NCBI RefSeq assembly: GCF_034932065.1 | Contig: NZ_JAYGHP010000013.1 | Location: forward strand, 1 to 64,000 | Direction of reading: 5' to 3' | Length of the DNA stretch: 64,000 nucleotides | From: Crocosphaera sp. UHCC 0190 | Lineage (GTDB): Bacteria > Cyanobacteriota > Cyanobacteriia > Cyanobacteriales > Microcystaceae | Shown: positions 21,803 through 31,681 of the stretch, piece by piece | How the letters are laid out: each line of letters opens with the position of its first letter | Position numbering within the stretch: the stretch's first letter is position 1 | Notes under the pieces: model-generated | The model's input: the letters and a program-made list of their open reading frames with translations, nothing else | What the model was told of the DNA's origin: nothing | The model's database searches: none | Program-made: the position numbers and the translations under genes

Positions 21803-21876
21803 TGGACGTAACTGGACTCGAACCAGTGACCCCATCGATGTCAACGATGTACTCTAACCAACTGAGCTATACGTCC
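21803..21876 (-). tRNA. tRNA-Val (anticodon GAC)
   Basis: The minus strand reads as a complete cloverleaf. The acceptor stem GGACGTA/TACGTCC is perfect. The D arm holds AGCTCAGTTGG, the anticodon stem CATCG/CGATG encloses loop TTGACAT (anticodon GAC), and the T arm contains GGTTCGAGTCC. The discriminator base is A and the CCA end is not encoded. Its 3' end faces the 952-aa gene. Confidence 0.95.
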
Positions 21877-24942: not shown

Positions 24943-25097
24943 GGAAATGCCCTAATCCATTGCGCCACTTTTATAACACGCTTTTTGTGTCAATGATAAA
25001 TTGATAAACGAATTTCTACCAATTTTACTACGAGGACTGACCTTAACTTACTGTTAACCTAATCACCTTAACCAGCATCATCAAAACGAATAATTGT

Positions 25098-26513
25098 TCA
25101 ATCTTTTAACCCAATAAACCAAGTTAATACCCCACCTGCGATCGCCATTACCCCCAACCCCAATAATACAGGTGGCAACCCGACCAAAGTTTCGGCAATC
25201 CCTGCTAAAGCTAAGGGTAAAGACAACGCAATATTAACCGCATTATTTTGTAACCCAAAGACTTTACCCCGCATATCGACGGGAGTTTCTGATTGAATGA
25301 TAGTTTGCATGGGAACCCCGACAAACGCCGCAAATAGCCCTAAAAAAGTGGTCATCAGTAAGGTTATCCAGAGACTCGAAGTCCCCAAGGATAATCCTAC
25401 CAAAGACACAGCCATCCCAATTGATCCCCATAATCCTAATTGATGATTCCGAAAACGTTGCCCCCAATTCCCTAAAATTGCCGCCCCAAAGGCCATTCCT
25501 AAGCCACCCGTTGCCAGTAAAAAGCCAAATTGTTCCGCTTTCATTCCCGGAATTGTTTCAGCCATACGGACAGCTAAAACCGATAAGGCAGCAAAAATGG
25601 AAAACAGAATGACCAACTGAATTAAGGCATTGCGTACCCGATAATTATTGCTTAAATAACTAATCCCATCTTTAATATCATCAAAAACATGGGGACGTTC
25701 TTTTTCGTAATGTTCCCGCTTTTCTCCTGTTCTCAAGAAAGATAAAATTAACCCCGCGATTAAATAGGAAAATCCCACCACGGAAGCTTTGCCTTCTTCC
25801 CAAGAAAGATTAATCGTGTTAGCCATATTTGCTGCTAATTCTAACAAAGGTTCTCCAATTGCAAAACCAATAATGGTCATGGCCATCATGGTTGTAGTAA
25901 ATAGAGAATTAGCTGATAGTAGATGACGACGTTTAACAATAAGGGAAATGGTAGCCTGTTCAGCAGGGGCAAAAAATTGAGTAATCGTGGAATCAATAAA
26001 AGTCATTACTAATAAAACTAAGAAACCCAGGGGCAAGAAAAACACATCTTGGGTTTGATGTTGCCAACGTCGCAACCAGTCAGGCAACCAAGCCACCGTA
26101 ATCGCTACGGTATCATCTTGGCATAACCATAATAACGGGGGAATAATAAACACAAAGGCGGCCCGAATTAGGTTAGAAATGACTAAAACCCCTTTTTTTG
26201 ACCAACGATCTACATAAACCCCGGCCAAAGAACCAAATAAAACAGCAGGAATGGTAAAGGCAATCATAATGGCTGATACCCAACCACTGATGGGTTGATT
26301 TTCCCCTTGAAAGTTACCCGCAATTAAGGCAATCATCAACACCAAATATATTTTATCCGCAAGTTGGGAAAAGACTTGACCAACCCAAAGAGTTAAAAAT
26401 CGAGGATTATCCAATACAGGGGCAAATCCTTGACGGGGGGATTTTTTGGGGATGGGGGGGCGATCCATAGGGCTTTCTGTGGTGGAAGTGGTTTCAGAAT
26501 TAGAAACTGGCAT
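25098..26513 (-). CDS. Major facilitator superfamily transporter
   Basis: The 471-residue protein has about 12 membrane segments between residues 30 and 470. The conserved loop-2 motif (GSLAGVYVDRWSKK, about 95-108) is present. It resembles the EntS/MFS_3-type exporters with a long cytoplasmic loop after helix 6. The substrate is unknown. It is on the same strand as recO and 46 bp downstream of its stop. Confidence 0.85.
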   Translation of the reverse strand: MPVSNSETTSTTESPMDRPPIPKKSPRQGFAPVLDNPRFLTLWVGQVFSQLADKIYLVLMIALIAGNFQGENQPISGWVSAIMIAFTIPAVLFGSLAGVYVDRWSKKGVLVISNLIRAAFVFIIPPLLWLCQDDTVAITVAWLPDWLRRWQHQTQDVFFLPLGFLVLLVMTFIDSTITQFFAPAEQATISLIVKRRHLLSANSLFTTTMMAMTIIGFAIGEPLLELAANMANTINLSWEEGKASVVGFSYLIAGLILSFLRTGEKREHYEKERPHVFDDIKDGISYLSNNYRVRNALIQLVILFSIFAALSVLAVRMAETIPGMKAEQFGFLLATGGLGMAFGAAILGNWGQRFRNHQLGLWGSIGMAVSLVGLSLGTSSLWITLLMTTFLGLFAAFVGVPMQTIIQSETPVDMRGKVFGLQNNAVNIALSLPLALAGIAETLVGLPPVLLGLGVMAIAGGVLTWFIGLKD

Positions 26514-26559
26514 GGTTAGGGGTTCATTAAGTAAGCAATCTCACAATGTTTATTAAACC

Positions 26560-27417
26560 TTAAAACTCCATCGAAGATACGCTATCCACTAAAGTTGCTG
26601 ACCGAAATGATCGCCCTAACTGATATTGGGCATAGTCTCTGAGGAGATGTTCCACTTCTACCCAGGGAACAATAAAAAGACTGTTTAGGATTTCTGGGGG
26701 AAACAGTTTGCCTGGATGGGGCAATGAAGAATAATTTAACTGTTGTAAGAGGCTTAATTCTGTTGCTCTGACTTGATTATTAAGGGTTGGTAACACATAA
26801 GGACTATTTTGGTTTACAGGCATCTTTAAGGTGGCTTTTAGGCTGTCTCGAAGGGCTAAATCGATCACTCCTCCTGCCTCAAAACTAAACCCGACTCGCC
26901 AATTAGGATCGCTAAAATTGGGATTAAGGGTGTTTTGGGTTAGACAACAGCGATGGACTTGAGGGGCAATCCCTGCGATCGCCAATAAATGAAAGACTGC
27001 TTGGGCTAAATAACCATGTAAACTTTCCGAGGTAGACATCTTTTCTAAACGACGGAGATGTTCATTTAACAGTCCATATAATTCTCCTTGGGGTTGATCA
27101 ATTAAGGCTAAACTTAACACTAATTCCGCTAAATATTGACCTGCGGCCAGTTTTCCTAAATCCTTACTTAACCCCGGATAGGATTCAATCGTGTCTGCTT
27201 GGGTAACTTTATCCAGCGATCGCCCTTTGGCAATTAGTAACTGATTGACCATAAATAATTCACAGCGTCCCCTTAACTGAGATTTTGGCTTTCTCGCCCC
27301 AGGAACCACCGCCCGAATTAATCCCCATTCAGGAGATAAAATCGTCACCAGACGATCGGCTTCTCCGAGAGGCATTCCTTTTAATATAATTCCTGTCGCT
27401 TGATAGGTTCGACTCAT
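26560..27417 (-). CDS. recO: DNA repair protein RecO
   Basis: The 285-residue protein begins with the RecO OB-fold motif ([39 protein letters not shown]). The helical middle domain ([21 protein letters not shown]) and a C-terminal half typical of RecO follow. RecO anneals single strands and loads RecA with RecR in recombinational repair. Only HRCC remains of the cysteine cluster that binds zinc in many bacterial RecO proteins. Confidence 0.9.
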
Positions 27418-27432
27418 TGATTCATTATTTTC

Positions 27433-27496
27433 GTAGGGTTATGGCATCAGTAAGACTTTCCATTCTATCCGAAATCTTAGTATTGCTATGCCCCTA
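27433..27496. repeat. Imperfect inverted repeat, shares GGCATCAGTAA with the repeat at 30365
   Basis: Arms 27433-27446 and 27483-27496 are imperfect complements starting GTAGGG and ending CCCTAC. The left arm runs into GGCATCAGTAA, which is found again at 30375-30385 in a similar inverted repeat. Confidence 0.45.
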
Positions 27497-27581
27497 CATT
27501 AAAGAATAGTAGAAAGACGGGGTTTTCAACCCAATTCTCTGATAAATTGCCGCTTCGGGAATAATAATAAATAAATTCAGT

Positions 27582-28022
27582 TTAGGGGAGTAGATCCTCT
27601 AAAGTATAAGGGCATTGGCTAGGTAAGCTGATTTCATATTCGGACTCGACAATTTCAACGGCATCTTGATAAATTTCTGAAAACTCTTTTTGAAGCTTGG
27701 GTTTCATACTGGGTGCTATTTTACGCTTCATATTCTTTTTAAAAGCGACAACCTCAGACTTCCACTTGTTACGGCATTCAGGTAAAGGAACATAGTCAAT
27801 CTTTAAACGGTGTTCAATTTGTCTGATGAGCAAGCTGACCACTGCATTATATTCACTACGTCCCAAAGCTTCGATCTCCTCAATAATATTGTCCCAGTCT
27901 ACGTTCTCTAAATGTTTCAATTCCTGATGGGTATTCACAAGCTCTCGTAACGCCTTGGCTTGTTCTATTGACCATTGATGGTAATCTCTCTCGTAAGTCA
28001 ATTTCGATATTGTCTGGCTCAT
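27582..28022 (-). CDS. DUF29 family protein
   Basis: The 146-residue protein carries the DUF29 pattern: Y..D...W...Q...LR (YERDYHQWSIEQAKALREL), DWDNIIEEIEALGRSE, LLIRQIEHRLKIDY and a C-terminal SLPSQCPYTLEDLLP. DUF29 proteins are numerous in cyanobacteria, often near mobile DNA, and their function is unknown. Confidence 0.85.
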   Translation of the reverse strand: MSQTISKLTYERDYHQWSIEQAKALRELVNTHQELKHLENVDWDNIIEEIEALGRSEYNAVVSLLIRQIEHRLKIDYVPLPECRNKWKSEVVAFKKNMKRKIAPSMKPKLQKEFSEIYQDAVEIVESEYEISLPSQCPYTLEDLLP

Positions 28023-28197
28023 GGGTTAAACTCCGGTGGAGAATCATTTTTTCGAGATGTCCCCTTGGTAATAATATTAAGCCCAAGAAACATCAAAGTA
28101 TCGGGTTGAATGATAGTGACATCCTCCCACGCACGCCACTACGTTTTGTGCGGGGAACCTCCCTAACTCACGATAGGGCATTCCTGGTTATTCTCGC

Positions 28198-28454
28198 TCA
28201 TGCGAGGTTTCGCCACTTATCTAAAACTCGTTGGTACAAATGATGATAAACATCTCCCACCGTTGGTTCCCCGACAGAACGACTAATCAGGCGTTTTCGT
28301 TTTCCAGAGTCCCTGGATACTTGTCGATTTGTTCAATTTTTTGTCGTATTTCCCAAGCTCGGTCGGTTCCGTCAATTGACTACCTTTCACTCTCATCTTG
28401 GATGGGTACACCCCAACTCTGGCTCAATTTAGGTTTTTTACCTGGCGGCCACAT
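28198..28454 (-). pseudogene. Degraded reading frame inside the palindrome-rich segment
   Basis: From ATG 28454 the frame gives MWPPGKKPKLSQSWGVPIQD and ESER, then a TAG (28380-28382). It continues SIDGTDRAWEIRQKIEQIDK to a TGA at 28287-28289. Near the end of that stretch another frame opens, reading KRKRLISRSVGEPTVGDVYH and HLYQRVLDKWRNLA, to a stop at 28198-28200. The whole looks like a gene broken by one stop and one frameshift. I do not recognise the family. The coding appearance may also be coincidental if the segment encodes a structured RNA. Confidence 0.35.
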
Positions 28455-28478
28455 CTATTATGTCACAAAACTGTTGCT

Positions 28479-28530
28479 TTGGCGAGAAATCCCTCGATTT
28501 TCGTTCCTCAATCGGGGATTTCTCGCCAAA
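28479..28530. repeat. Long hairpin-forming inverted repeat
   Basis: TTGGCGAGAAATCC (from 28479) is complementary to GGATTTCTCGCCAA (to 28528), with pairing extended by one bulge through TCGATT/AATCGG. The stem is about 20 bp with a short loop. It lies inside the putative decayed element. Confidence 0.75.
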
Positions 28531-28651
28531 AAGAGGTTAAACCCCGACAGACACTGATCGCCCTTTAGCTTTCCTAATTCCCTGTTTCAATTGTCAGGAT
28601 TTTCTTTTTCCGGCAGGGGTCTGCAAGCGCACGGATTTCCCATTATCTATA

Positions 28652-28680
28652 GAATATCATGTCAAGTCAAGGTTGTCAAG
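28652..28680 (-). promoter_or_regulatory. Promoter-like sequence reading into the palindrome-rich segment
   Basis: On the minus strand TTGACA is followed 17 nt later by TATTCT. It faces the degraded frame. The local repetition of TTGAC makes alternative spacings possible. Confidence 0.35.
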
Positions 28681-28703
28681 AACAATTGCAACAGCAAAGC
28701 ATA

Positions 28704-28724
28704 GGGTTTAATAGTATTAAACCC
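28704..28724. repeat. Subterminal palindrome at boundary of decayed element
   Basis: GGGTTTAAT (28704-28712) pairs with ATTAAACCC (28716-28724) around AGT. It is followed by CGACA. TTAAACCCCGACA recurs at 28537-28549 as a direct repeat. Confidence 0.7.
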
Positions 28725-28761
28725 CGACAAATAGCGATGGCTTTCACTATCCAAGTCTTGC

Positions 28762-28965
28762 CTAAACTGTTGATAATCCCAACATTGCCTTTAAGGTAAA
28801 ATAAAGCAGAGAAAAGACCCCGACTACAATGCCACTCATAGCGATCGCAGTAACCGGATTTTTAAATAAGGGTCTAATCCATTCAAAAAATGACCAAAAG
28901 ACCCCCAAAGAAAAGCTAATCAGATAACGGGGGTAGCGTGAAACGTTGTCAAAAAATTCTCCCAT
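28762..28965 (-). CDS. DUF751 (Ycf33-like) small membrane protein
   Basis: The 67-residue protein MGEFFDNVSRYPRYLISFSL... matches the DUF751/Ycf33 pattern: N-terminal NVSRYPRYLISFSLGVFW, then RPLFKNPVTAIAM and a C-terminal helix ending LRAMLGL-like (LKAMLGLSTV). It has two membrane segments. The family is conserved in cyanobacteria and some plastids, with unknown function. Confidence 0.8.
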   Translation of the reverse strand: MGEFFDNVSRYPRYLISFSLGVFWSFFEWIRPLFKNPVTAIAMSGIVVGVFSLLYFTLKAMLGLSTV

Positions 28966-29074
28966 AGTTCAACCTTCCAACTTAACAATCGTCTTTCATC
29001 ATATCAGTCAAGCGATCGGACAACATTCTACGCTATCCTCTAACATAGAAAACCTGAATACTTAATGATTAATC

Positions 29075-30358
29075 ATGGCACAAAATCTTTTTGATCGGGG
29101 TGCTGATGCCCTCGTTATTTTCAGTCGTCTCTGGGGTCGTCAAACTTGGTTTATTTTTCTGATTCTCTTTGGCTTATATTTAACCTTAATTCCCTTTACC
29201 TGGCCCAATATTGCCCAAGCTCGCAATCAACCCACAGAAATTCGTGGGGTCTGGCTAACCAATATTGATAGTGATGTTCTGTTTGATAAAAATAGTCTAA
29301 CTGAAGGCATCAATACCCTCTCTCAGTTAAATTTTAATACGCTTTATCCCACGGTTTGGAATTGGGGTTACACACTTTATCCTTCTACTGTTGCTGAATC
29401 TGTCATTGGACAAAAATTAGATCCCACAGAAGGATTACAAGGACGGGATATTCTGCAAGAAACGATAGAACAAGGTCATAAAAAAGGTATGGCTGTAATC
29501 CCTTGGTTTGAATTTGGGTTTATGGCTCCTGCTGATTCAGAATTAGCCAAACGCCATGATCAATGGTTAACCAACCGTCAAGATGGTAGCAAAATTTGGT
29601 TAGAAGGGAATGTCCATCAACGAGTCTGGTTAAATCCATTTCATCCCGAAGTTCAAGGATTTATTACTCAGTTAATTACAGAACTGGTTACTAATTATGA
29701 TATCGATGGTATCCAAGTTGATGATCATTTTGGTATCCCCTTTGATTTTGGTTACGATGATTTCACCGTAAAACTCTATCAACAAGAACATAATGGTCAG
29801 TTGCCTCCTAAACCGCCAGCAAATTTAAAAATGGGCAGTAATAATTGTATGGTCAATGATGCTGCTTGGACAGAATGGACACAATGGAGAGCTAATAAAA
29901 TTACTGATTATATGGGAGAATTATTTACAGCGATTAAAGCAGCTAATCCTAAAGTAATTGTTTCGGTTTCTCCTAACCCTCAGACTTTCTCCGCTAATTG
30001 TTTTCTTTTAGACTGGCAGACTTGGCAGCAAAAAGGACTGATTGAAGAGTTAGTATTACAAGTATATCGGGAAAACTTAAGGGATTTTCAACGAGAAATT
30101 AATAGTCCTGAAGTGCAGCAAGCAAAAGCTAATATTCCCTTTGGCGTTGGGGTTCTTTCTGGGTTAAAAGGTCGTCCGGTTTCCATGAATAAAATTTCTG
30201 AGCAAGTCGCTGCAAGCCGTAAACAAAAGTTGGCAGGGGTTTCTTTTTTCTTCTATGAAAGTTTATGGAACTTTGGCCCTAAATCTCCCAAAGAACGACA
30301 ATTTATGTTTAAACAGATTTTCCCCACTCTTGTTAGTCGTCCCTCCATTAATCCTTAG
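29075..30358 (+). CDS. Family-10-like glycosyl hydrolase (GHL10/DUF187 type)
   Basis: The 427-residue protein has an N-terminal membrane anchor or signal (about 25-48). A TIM-barrel glycosidase-like domain follows, starting at TEIRGVWLTNIDSDVLF. Characteristic blocks are FNTLYPTVWNWGYTLYPS, GMAVIPWFEFGFMAP, YDIDGIQVDDHFGIPFDFGYD and VSVSPNPQTF. The D-x-D-D region near 210 (IDGIQVDDHF) is the likely catalytic area. It probably acts on cell-wall or extracellular polysaccharide in the periplasm; the true substrate is unknown. Confidence 0.85.
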   Translation: MAQNLFDRGADALVIFSRLWGRQTWFIFLILFGLYLTLIPFTWPNIAQARNQPTEIRGVWLTNIDSDVLFDKNSLTEGINTLSQLNFNTLYPTVWNWGYTLYPSTVAESVIGQKLDPTEGLQGRDILQETIEQGHKKGMAVIPWFEFGFMAPADSELAKRHDQWLTNRQDGSKIWLEGNVHQRVWLNPFHPEVQGFITQLITELVTNYDIDGIQVDDHFGIPFDFGYDDFTVKLYQQEHNGQLPPKPPANLKMGSNNCMVNDAAWTEWTQWRANKITDYMGELFTAIKAANPKVIVSVSPNPQTFSANCFLLDWQTWQQKGLIEELVLQVYRENLRDFQREINSPEVQQAKANIPFGVGVLSGLKGRPVSMNKISEQVAASRKQKLAGVSFFFYESLWNFGPKSPKERQFMFKQIFPTLVSRPSINP

Positions 30359-30835
30359 TTTTAGGTAGGGGCAAGGCATCAGTAAATTATATTGATTCGC
30401 GCAAAATCTCTTTATTTTGCCTTGCCCACACTTAAATTAAAATGTTATTTTAAAGCCATTTTGTCTAGGAAAACTGCTGTCAGAAGATCTTCTCGCAATT
30501 AATTAATCTTAACTCATCTAACACAATGTAATATATTTGTATTTTTTATGTTTATATTTTTGACAAAAACTGTAACATTCAATACAAAACATCCCAAAAA
30601 AACATTAAAAATGTTCACTCCAAGCAAAATTAATCAAAAGAATTCTCATTAAGCAACGAAAGAATGGGGTTGACAACCCATACTACTTTTTGCTATGCTA
30701 ATGGACGATAGTAACGGTAGGATAGGCCAAAACTATATTTCTAAATACTCCTTATTTCTGGTTAGTCTTCTGTAACATCGAAGAGTCGCAATAACCGCTA
30801 AGATTGAAACCAGATAGGATTAAGGAGAGATATTT
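30359..30835. other. 477-bp gene-free stretch upstream of the prohibitin-like gene
   Basis: No gene is seen. At its left is an inverted repeat (GTAGGGGCAAGGCA at 30365-30378 against 30418-30429) that shares GGCATCAGTAA with the repeat at 27433-27496. The middle is AT-rich. The right side carries a promoter-like sequence at 30670-30699. Confidence 0.5.
30670..30699 (+). promoter_or_regulatory. Putative sigma-70-type promoter of the prohibitin-like gene
   Basis: TTGACA (30670-30675) and TATGCT (30694-30699) are separated by 18 bp, about 140 bp upstream of the GTG start. A short GGGTTGACAACCC palindrome overlaps the -35 box and could be an operator. Confidence 0.45.
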
Positions 30836-31681
30836 GTGAATCGTCAATCACCCCCTAGCTTACAACCGTTAATCGGTGGTATCATTGCTGCCTTATTGGT
30901 TGTCATCAGTTTTAACTCATTTATTGTGGTTAACCCTGGACAGGCAGGAGTATTAAGCATTTTAGGCAAAGCGCAAGACGGAGTATTATTGGAAGGCATA
31001 CACTTTAAACCGCCGATTATTTCTACGGTAGACGTGTATGATCTTACTGTACAGAAATTTGAAGTTCCGGCCGAAAGTTCCACCAAAGATTTACAAAATC
31101 TTAGTGCAAGTTTTGCCATTAATTTTCGTCTTGATCCCTTGCAAGTTGTTGATATTCGTCGAACCCAAGGAACCCTACAGAATATCGTTTCTAAAATTGT
31201 CGCTCCCCAAACCCAAGAATCCTTTAAAATTGCCGCAGCAAGGCGTACAGTAGAACAGGCAATTACCCAAAGGAGTGAACTCAAAGAAGACTTTGACAAT
31301 GCCTTAAATTCTCGGTTAGAAAAGTACGGAATTATTGTGCTTGACACTAGCGTTATTGATTTGAACTTTTCTCCTGAATTTTCTCGTGCAGTAGAAGAAA
31401 AACAAATTGCTGAACAGAGGGCGCAACGTGCTGTTTATATTGCCCAAGAAGCAGAACAGGAAGCACAAGCGGATATTAACCGAGCCAAAGGTAGAGCAGA
31501 AGCACAACGTTTATTAGCAGAAACCTTGAAAGCGCAAGGAGGGGAATTAGTGCTACAAAAAGAAGCCATTGAAGCGTGGAAACAAGGAGGCGCACAAATG
31601 CCTAAAGTGTTAGTTATGAGCGGGGATAATAAGAGTAGTATTCCTTTCCTATTTAATTTAGGAGATATACAAACTCAGTAA
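30836..31681 (+). CDS. Prohibitin/SPFH (Band 7) family membrane protein
   Basis: The start is a GTG at 30836, chosen because AAGGAGAG lies just upstream. The 281-residue product has one N-terminal membrane segment (about 10-32) and an SPFH domain with VNPGQAGVLSILGKAQDGVLLEGIHFKPP. A helical C-terminal region rich in Ala, Glu and Gln (EEKQIAEQRAQRAVYIAQEAEQEAQADI) typical of prohibitins follows. Such proteins form large ring scaffolds in membranes. The cyanobacterial one is found in the plasma or thylakoid membrane. Confidence 0.9.
   Translation: MNRQSPPSLQPLIGGIIAALLVVISFNSFIVVNPGQAGVLSILGKAQDGVLLEGIHFKPPIISTVDVYDLTVQKFEVPAESSTKDLQNLSASFAINFRLDPLQVVDIRRTQGTLQNIVSKIVAPQTQESFKIAAARRTVEQAITQRSELKEDFDNALNSRLEKYGIIVLDTSVIDLNFSPEFSRAVEEKQIAEQRAQRAVYIAQEAEQEAQADINRAKGRAEAQRLLAETLKAQGGELVLQKEAIEAWKQGGAQMPKVLVMSGDNKSSIPFLFNLGDIQTQ

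Follow-up and report, generated by a model that had tools for sequence, protein, structure and literature searches.

A transposase-free IS200/IS605-type element in Crocosphaera carries a conserved structured RNA that may act as a stand-alone TnpB guide

TnpB is the ancestor of CRISPR-Cas12, and the known guide RNAs of this nuclease belong to the tnpB 3′ region. In ISDra2, TnpB is guided by a right-end RNA whose last ~16 nt are taken from the flank, and cleavage occurs beside the target motif (PMC8612924). This reRNA of about 150 nt matches the tnpB 3′ end and the right end (RE) of the element (PMC8612924, PMC10097598), and the bases just before the guide form a pseudoknot with bases about 102 to 106 nt upstream (PMC10097598). 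The palindrome-associated transposable elements (PATEs) of Haloquadratum have IS605-type ends, a near-terminal palindrome and a targeting motif at one end and are too short to encode a transposase (PMC3119063).

Here, we analyzed a 64,000-nt stretch of the genome of Crocosphaera sp. UHCC 0190 (the window; NZ_JAYGHP010000013.1). An earlier note had flagged positions 28110 to 28730 as a palindrome-bounded segment that could be either a decayed IS200/IS605-type element or a structured noncoding RNA locus using the same ends. Both proposals proved partly right, as the data point to a combination of them, namely, a TnpB-less mobile element with IS200/IS605-type ends that carries a conserved structured RNA as cargo. 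With moderate confidence, we read the locus as a PATE-like, nonautonomous IS200/IS605-type element in which tnpB has been replaced by a dedicated RNA gene, whose transcript would guide TnpB in trans.

Ends and dispersal of the element

No credible gene was found between the DUF29 gene (27582–28022) and the DUF751 gene (28762–28965), both on the minus strand, which upholds the description of the segment as gene free. About 415 bp of the flagged region shared 86% identity with a locus of a different genus. When 50 genomes of the family were searched with positions 28020–28780 as the query, 30 gave matches, in part via the element and in part via a repeat at 28617–28687; several matches lay at contig ends, as expected of repeats. 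Ten copies from other genera (G012, G013, G015, G016, G017, G018, G019, and G039; 77 to 86% identity) were aligned with the window. Conservation set in directly behind a TTTAA-like motif and continued to the right end, which reads ...GATGTCAC, with immediate divergence outside. As copies elsewhere begin and end at or near these points, the element comprises 421 bp of the minus strand (28116–28536), with the left end (LE) at 28536 and the RE at 28116, where the alignment defines a terminal GTCAC (28116–28120). The right boundary at 28730 had been misplaced: positions 28540–28730 are different sequence that includes a dispersed repeat.

A TTTAA that resembles a target site or TAM adjoins the left end (28537–28541, minus strand). 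Inside it lies a minus-strand hairpin (28478–28530) with two perfect 16-nt arms (28478–28493 and 28515–28530), in agreement with the stem of about 20 bp previously noted at 28479–28530; relatives have an imperfect homologous hairpin. The LE thus carries the subterminal hairpin of IS200/IS605 elements. The TnpA (Y1) or TnpB that such elements encode is missing, as no tnpA or tnpB open reading frame (ORF) was found in the element and a tblastn search with three TnpBs (1e-5) detected no TnpB-like DNA at 25001–31000, so that no tnpB overlaps the element in cis. Left-end motifs were tabulated for 28 loci whose left end was recognizable by eye, giving 18 of TTTAA and 10 of TCATC type. TTTAA preceded the LE in 12 of 13 stand-alone loci, including the window, and in 4 of 5 tnpB-linked loci (the exceptions were L056 and L141; for L058, L112, and L142, it was counted by reading inside the printed match). 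Among the tabulated loci, the TTTAA target motif and the GTCAC right end are therefore common to tnpB-linked and stand-alone elements. TTTAA is also the TAM of the ISAam1 TnpB (PMC12433972). The combination of TCATC with a GTCAA right end was found at the TnpB on contig C25 of the same Crocosphaera genome (G000) and at 8 of 9 stand-alone loci (the exception, L202, has TTATC, and the motif of L123 lies one base further out).

The earlier note had proposed a search for further copies and empty sites. In addition to the ten copies in other genomes, one empty site was identified: both flanks of the G018 copy are present without the element in G012, ending at GGTTTTTA. Because some 50 bp of a second repeat are also contained in the filled site of G018, the junction is not base-perfect. 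Its IS605-type ends, lack of a transposase, and dispersal place the element with the PATEs. A second copy in the same genome consists of the 3′ domain only (C22:26961–27166) and ends about 21 bp before what we take to be a PsbO-like gene. The copy at L057:1023–2322 (G015) is interrupted by decayed TnpB-like sequence with its own end-like hairpins, as judged by eye, between the left end and the 5′ domain; we take this relic for another element that has inserted into the copy. Stand-alone RNA elements that are nearly identical but differ in their flanks were observed in three genomes of one genus (L187 to L189; G024, G025, and G033), suggesting recent mobility. A TnpB or TnpA that could mobilize the element had also been proposed as a check. 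TnpBs are present in the Crocosphaera genome, but its one Y1 transposase match, a 191-aa protein at G000:C14 (L017:1336–1908), is not at the element and is presumably RAYT-like. Present mobility in this genome is for this reason doubtful.

The short repeats on which the flagged boundaries had been based exist: TTAAACCCCGACA is present at 28537 and at 28717, and the 21-bp palindrome GGGTTTAATAGTATTAAACCC lies at 28704. The interpretation of CCCCGACA copies as ends failed, however. The TTAAACCCCGACA 13-mer has two exact matches genome-wide, both at this locus, and the pattern searched, with up to one mismatch, occurred at 13 places in the genome, compared to 11 for a reversed control; thus, TTAAACCCCGACA and CCCCGACA do not mark element ends. 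The palindrome region (28701–28728) has one 28-bp, 93% similar counterpart at C4:223387–223414. The repeat at 28617–28687 is a separate, dispersed, promoter-like sequence (minus strand, CTTGAC..TTGACATGATATT..ATAATGG..) with five more copies in the same genome. Another genus has 11 copies of it within 3.2 kb, 8 of the 10 spacings being 248 to 288 bp, and one copy there precedes what is presumably a HicB/HicA-like pair.

Kinship of the 3′ domain with tnpB-linked RNAs

The 207 bases at 28116–28322 (minus strand) form a 3′ RNA domain that is homologous to the RNA at the tnpB 3′ end and right end. A covariance model of this half (R1, 205 positions) matched 164 of the 291 genomes of the order at an E value of ≤1e-4. 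A script classified 57 loci, mostly among the best-scoring R1 matches rather than a random sample, and in 27 of them a TnpB-like frame bearing a zinc-finger pattern extended into the RNA; long TnpB ORFs were present in 12 of the first 30 R1 loci. The tnpB-linked loci reach about 1.5 to 1.6 kb to each side. As in reRNAs and omega RNAs, homologous RNA is therefore located at the tnpB 3′ end and terminates at the RE. In the Crocosphaera genome, R1 matched the ends of the TnpB genes on C25 and C7 and other loci without tnpB.

The remaining 30 of the 57 loci were provisionally solitary. Five of these entered alignment A4, which comprised 15 rows (the window, nine copies of one cluster, and these five loci), 11 entered alignment A5, and 14 were left out, either for frames resembling a tnpB tail (L096, L103, L111, L117, L132, L134, and L135) or as duplicates or loci with an unclear or unalignable 5′ domain (L079, L092, L095, L112, L123, L125, and L133). 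In the 3′ domain, 96.7% of the cells were paired, and 12 of 36 pairs had changed on both sides. The covariation score was reached by 0 of 500 shuffles, and the number of pair types was not unusual (286 of 500 shuffles). This and the two further structures described below (two from RNAalifold and one drawn by hand) were derived from the sequences on which they are scored, which favors them somewhat. The best identity of each window-group RNA to the 27 tnpB-linked RNAs in the 3′ domain was 51 to 59%, and this comparison yielded no close tnpB-linked relative for the group.

R1 and the model of the 5′ domain (R2), both of which have the window copy among their training rows, recovered the element with E values of 1e-74 and 1.4e-29, and the next-best matches in the window had values of 0.35 and 3.3. 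The window copy keeps 36 of 36 and 20 of 22 modeled base pairs. A GTGGC at 28212–28216, which starts 101 nt from the 3′ end, is complementary to the terminal GTCAC and could form a pseudoknot of the omega RNA type. Pairing of the two segments is possible in 14 of 14 rows, with no variation at either side. The copies diverge exactly at the flank immediately 3′ of the RNA (28100–28115, minus strand), the would-be guide. Based on this complementarity and the ISDra2 precedent, we infer that the transcript may be a stand-alone guide RNA for TnpB in trans.

The 5′ domain, its distribution, and a promoter-like box

A second RNA domain lies upstream of the 3′ domain in loci without tnpB and spans 28318–28463 of the minus strand in the window. 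In the window group (15 rows), 95.5% of the cells pair, 10 of 22 pairs had changed on both sides, the covariation score was reached by 0 of 500 shuffles, and sliding the partners reduced pairing to at most 51%. A related 5′ domain (model R3, 11 rows, among them loci of the same genome near C3:206 kb and C1:399 kb) showed 93.2% pairing, with 14 of 17 pairs changed on both sides and 0 of 500 shuffles reaching the score. R2 was detected in 18 of the 291 genomes of the order at 35 or more places and R3 in 113 of the 291; with a stricter cut, R3 was found in 37 of the 386 genomes of an overlapping sample of the phylum, 36 of them of the same order. Copy numbers for R1, R2, and R3 are lower bounds, based on the best 7 to 10 candidates per genome. 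Thirty of the 35 R2 matches and 20 R3 loci were examined as loci. In 21 of the 30 R2 loci (7 of these being R2 training rows), R1 followed after at most 131 nt, and it lay downstream of R3 in 15 of the 20 R3 loci (none of them R3 training rows); the 20 R3 loci included 6 with weak R1 scores (E values of 8e-6 to 2.4e-3) and 5 without R1 at an E value of ≤0.01.

These data bear on a rather unlikely alternative, namely, that the element is a plain PATE or MITE, a parasitic internal-deletion relic that moves via its two retained ends and has inherited an RNA structure without a guide function of its own. Further-reduced derivatives do exist (L064 retains 96 bp of the LE and 116 bp of the RE, and L062 retains 34 and 146 bp), and an origin of PATEs by core deletion of IS605-type elements has been published (PMC3119063). 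However, R2 and R3 were found in 0 of the 27 tnpB-linked loci at an E value of ≤0.01 (best values of 0.77 and 2.6), which shows that in this set the 5′ domain is not leftover tnpB-element sequence, and this domain covaries as RNA across genera. Together with the retention of the modeled pairs, its absence from those 27 loci also fits poorly with the term "decayed".

The tblastn search with the three TnpBs (1e-5) detected no TnpB-like DNA in the 20 R3 loci. Among 83 sequences without a linked tnpB (duplicates included, 20 being the R3 loci), three contained such DNA at 1e-5: L130 and L155, records of one locus where a separate TnpB occupies the opposite strand, and L123, which has a tail of 36 aa. 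The same test missed the L057 relic. In L130/L155 (G215:C96), the stand-alone RNA adjoins a TnpB frame of the C7 type, 70% identical over residues 2 to 379, on the other strand.

A −10-like box, CATAAT (28457–28462, minus strand), is located at a fixed offset from the first RNA hairpin. Over 15 copies, the hexamer at this offset had a mean match to TATAAT of 4.2 of 6, compared to 1.7 over all offsets (rows L056 and L093 were anchored about 1 base off). A TTGACA match of at least 4 at a spacing of 16 to 18 nt was present in 2 of 15 rows (4 of 6 in the window and 6 of 6 in L059). Transcription probably starts near 28450. The folding energy of the window RNA alone gave no support for the RNA strand, since the proposed strand was not unusual (z = −0.29), whereas the other strand was lower than the shuffles (z = −2.14). 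Assignment to the minus strand rests on an excess of G-U over A-C cells (27 versus 11) among pairs that are mostly Watson-Crick, on the −10 box, and on homology.

The promoter-like box would also suit a stand-alone regulatory RNA, or an RNA for another protein, that has captured IS605-type ends, a reading we regard as improbable. In two G019 copies (L078 and L081), a small divergent ORF, which we assume to be RHH-like, lies beside the stand-alone RNA, and in L081 the operator-like palindrome GTACCAATATGGTACAAT is found between them. However, a motif scan showed the ORF beside these two loci only, Pfam did not confirm an RHH domain, and the 3′ domain is of the kind carried by TnpB elements. A known Rfam family was rejected as the identity of the RNA. 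In the 64-kb window, a tRNA at 21803–21876 was the only match to reach the gathering score, and a search of 28000–28800 and nine related loci with a relaxed threshold gave no match to HEARO (IscB associated) or to group I or II introns.

The coding-like frame broken by one stop and one shift, which had been part of the original description, is plausible: in relatives, DNA homologous to the 3′ domain overlaps the tail of tnpB, and the frame may in part be a ghost of this overlap. That the locus is a decayed protein gene is nevertheless highly improbable. A vestigial frame could match the region overlapping the tnpB C-terminal tail, but the copies differ by short indels and by variable insertions in stems, and with the negative tblastn result at 25001–31000 this led us to reject a coding remnant as the main content.

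Guidance in trans and comparison with known systems

We therefore return to the PATE-like element with a dedicated guide RNA gene. According to this model, the internal promoter would yield an RNA of about 335 nt extended by flanking sequence, in which the distinct 5′ domain would be followed by the 3′ domain, the reRNA/omega RNA homolog, and by the flank as guide. TnpB made elsewhere would bind this RNA in trans and cleave the donor site, once vacated, beside TTTAA, so that the element would be kept in place, and movement would require a Y1 transposase supplied in trans. The candidate partner is the TnpB at G000:C7. The TnpBs at C25 and C7 were confirmed by Pfam (OrfB_IS605 and Cas12f1-like_TNB domains) and have no stop in 417 and 390 aa. 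Homologs of the C7 TnpB at an E value of ≤1e-90 were counted by eye in 18 of 18 R2-positive genomes and in 133 of 273 other genomes; at ≤1e-180, the counts were 12 of 18 and 22 of 273. Within family f19, homologs at ≤1e-180 were present in 8 of 12 R2-positive and 6 of 11 listed R2-negative genomes. The association is significant overall and largely follows phylogeny; because of this confounding, we do not use it as proof of a partnership.

A broader reading is possible but doubtful: these loci may belong to a large class of RNAs that guide TnpB in trans, are driven by promoters, and have gained a 5′ domain. Dispersed through the order with IS605-type ends, they would be a present-day "split omega RNA" intermediate linking TnpB to Cas12 systems that use tracrRNA, with some copies possibly domesticated as programmable regulators. 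Such RNAs may have been missed earlier, because a 2009 screen for cyanobacterial noncoding RNAs removed transposon-associated repeats (PMC2662882). Neither stand-alone TnpB guide RNAs nor the element RNA was found in titles and abstract openings among the open-licence matches listed. If the guide reading is true, one TnpB could serve many mobile RNAs per genome. Widespread nuclease-less elements that keep the scaffold and add a covarying 5′ domain and their own promoter would then illustrate how guide RNAs can come apart from their nucleases, the step proposed for the origin of tracrRNA.

IscB-associated omega RNAs without a linked iscB are likewise guide-like RNAs without a linked nuclease, but they belong to a different nuclease family and carry the guide at the other end. 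The element resembles the ISDra2 reRNA in the homology of its 3′ domain to the tnpB 3′ end and right end, its termination at the element boundary, the adjoining flank, and the TAM-like motif at the LE (PMC8612924, PMC10097598), and the complementarity of its terminal bases to a segment about 100 nt upstream parallels the ISDra2 pseudoknot (PMC10097598). It differs from a TnpB reRNA in having no tnpB in cis, its own promoter-like box, and an extra 5′ domain of about 130 nt. With the PATEs, it shares the ends, near-terminal palindrome, shortness, and one-end targeting motif, but some PATEs are fused IS605-type ends, and the element carries a conserved RNA with two covarying domains (PMC3119063). 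The known kinds are thus the PATE for the element and the reRNA for the 3′ domain; in the literature listings searched, their combination with a covarying 5′ domain and an own promoter was not seen. As a guide-scaffold RNA gene apart from its nuclease, the element is also reminiscent of the stand-alone tracrRNA of some Cas12 proteins, for which a split omega RNA origin has been hypothesized (PMC10097598), with the difference that here the guide would remain attached in cis, at the 3′ end.
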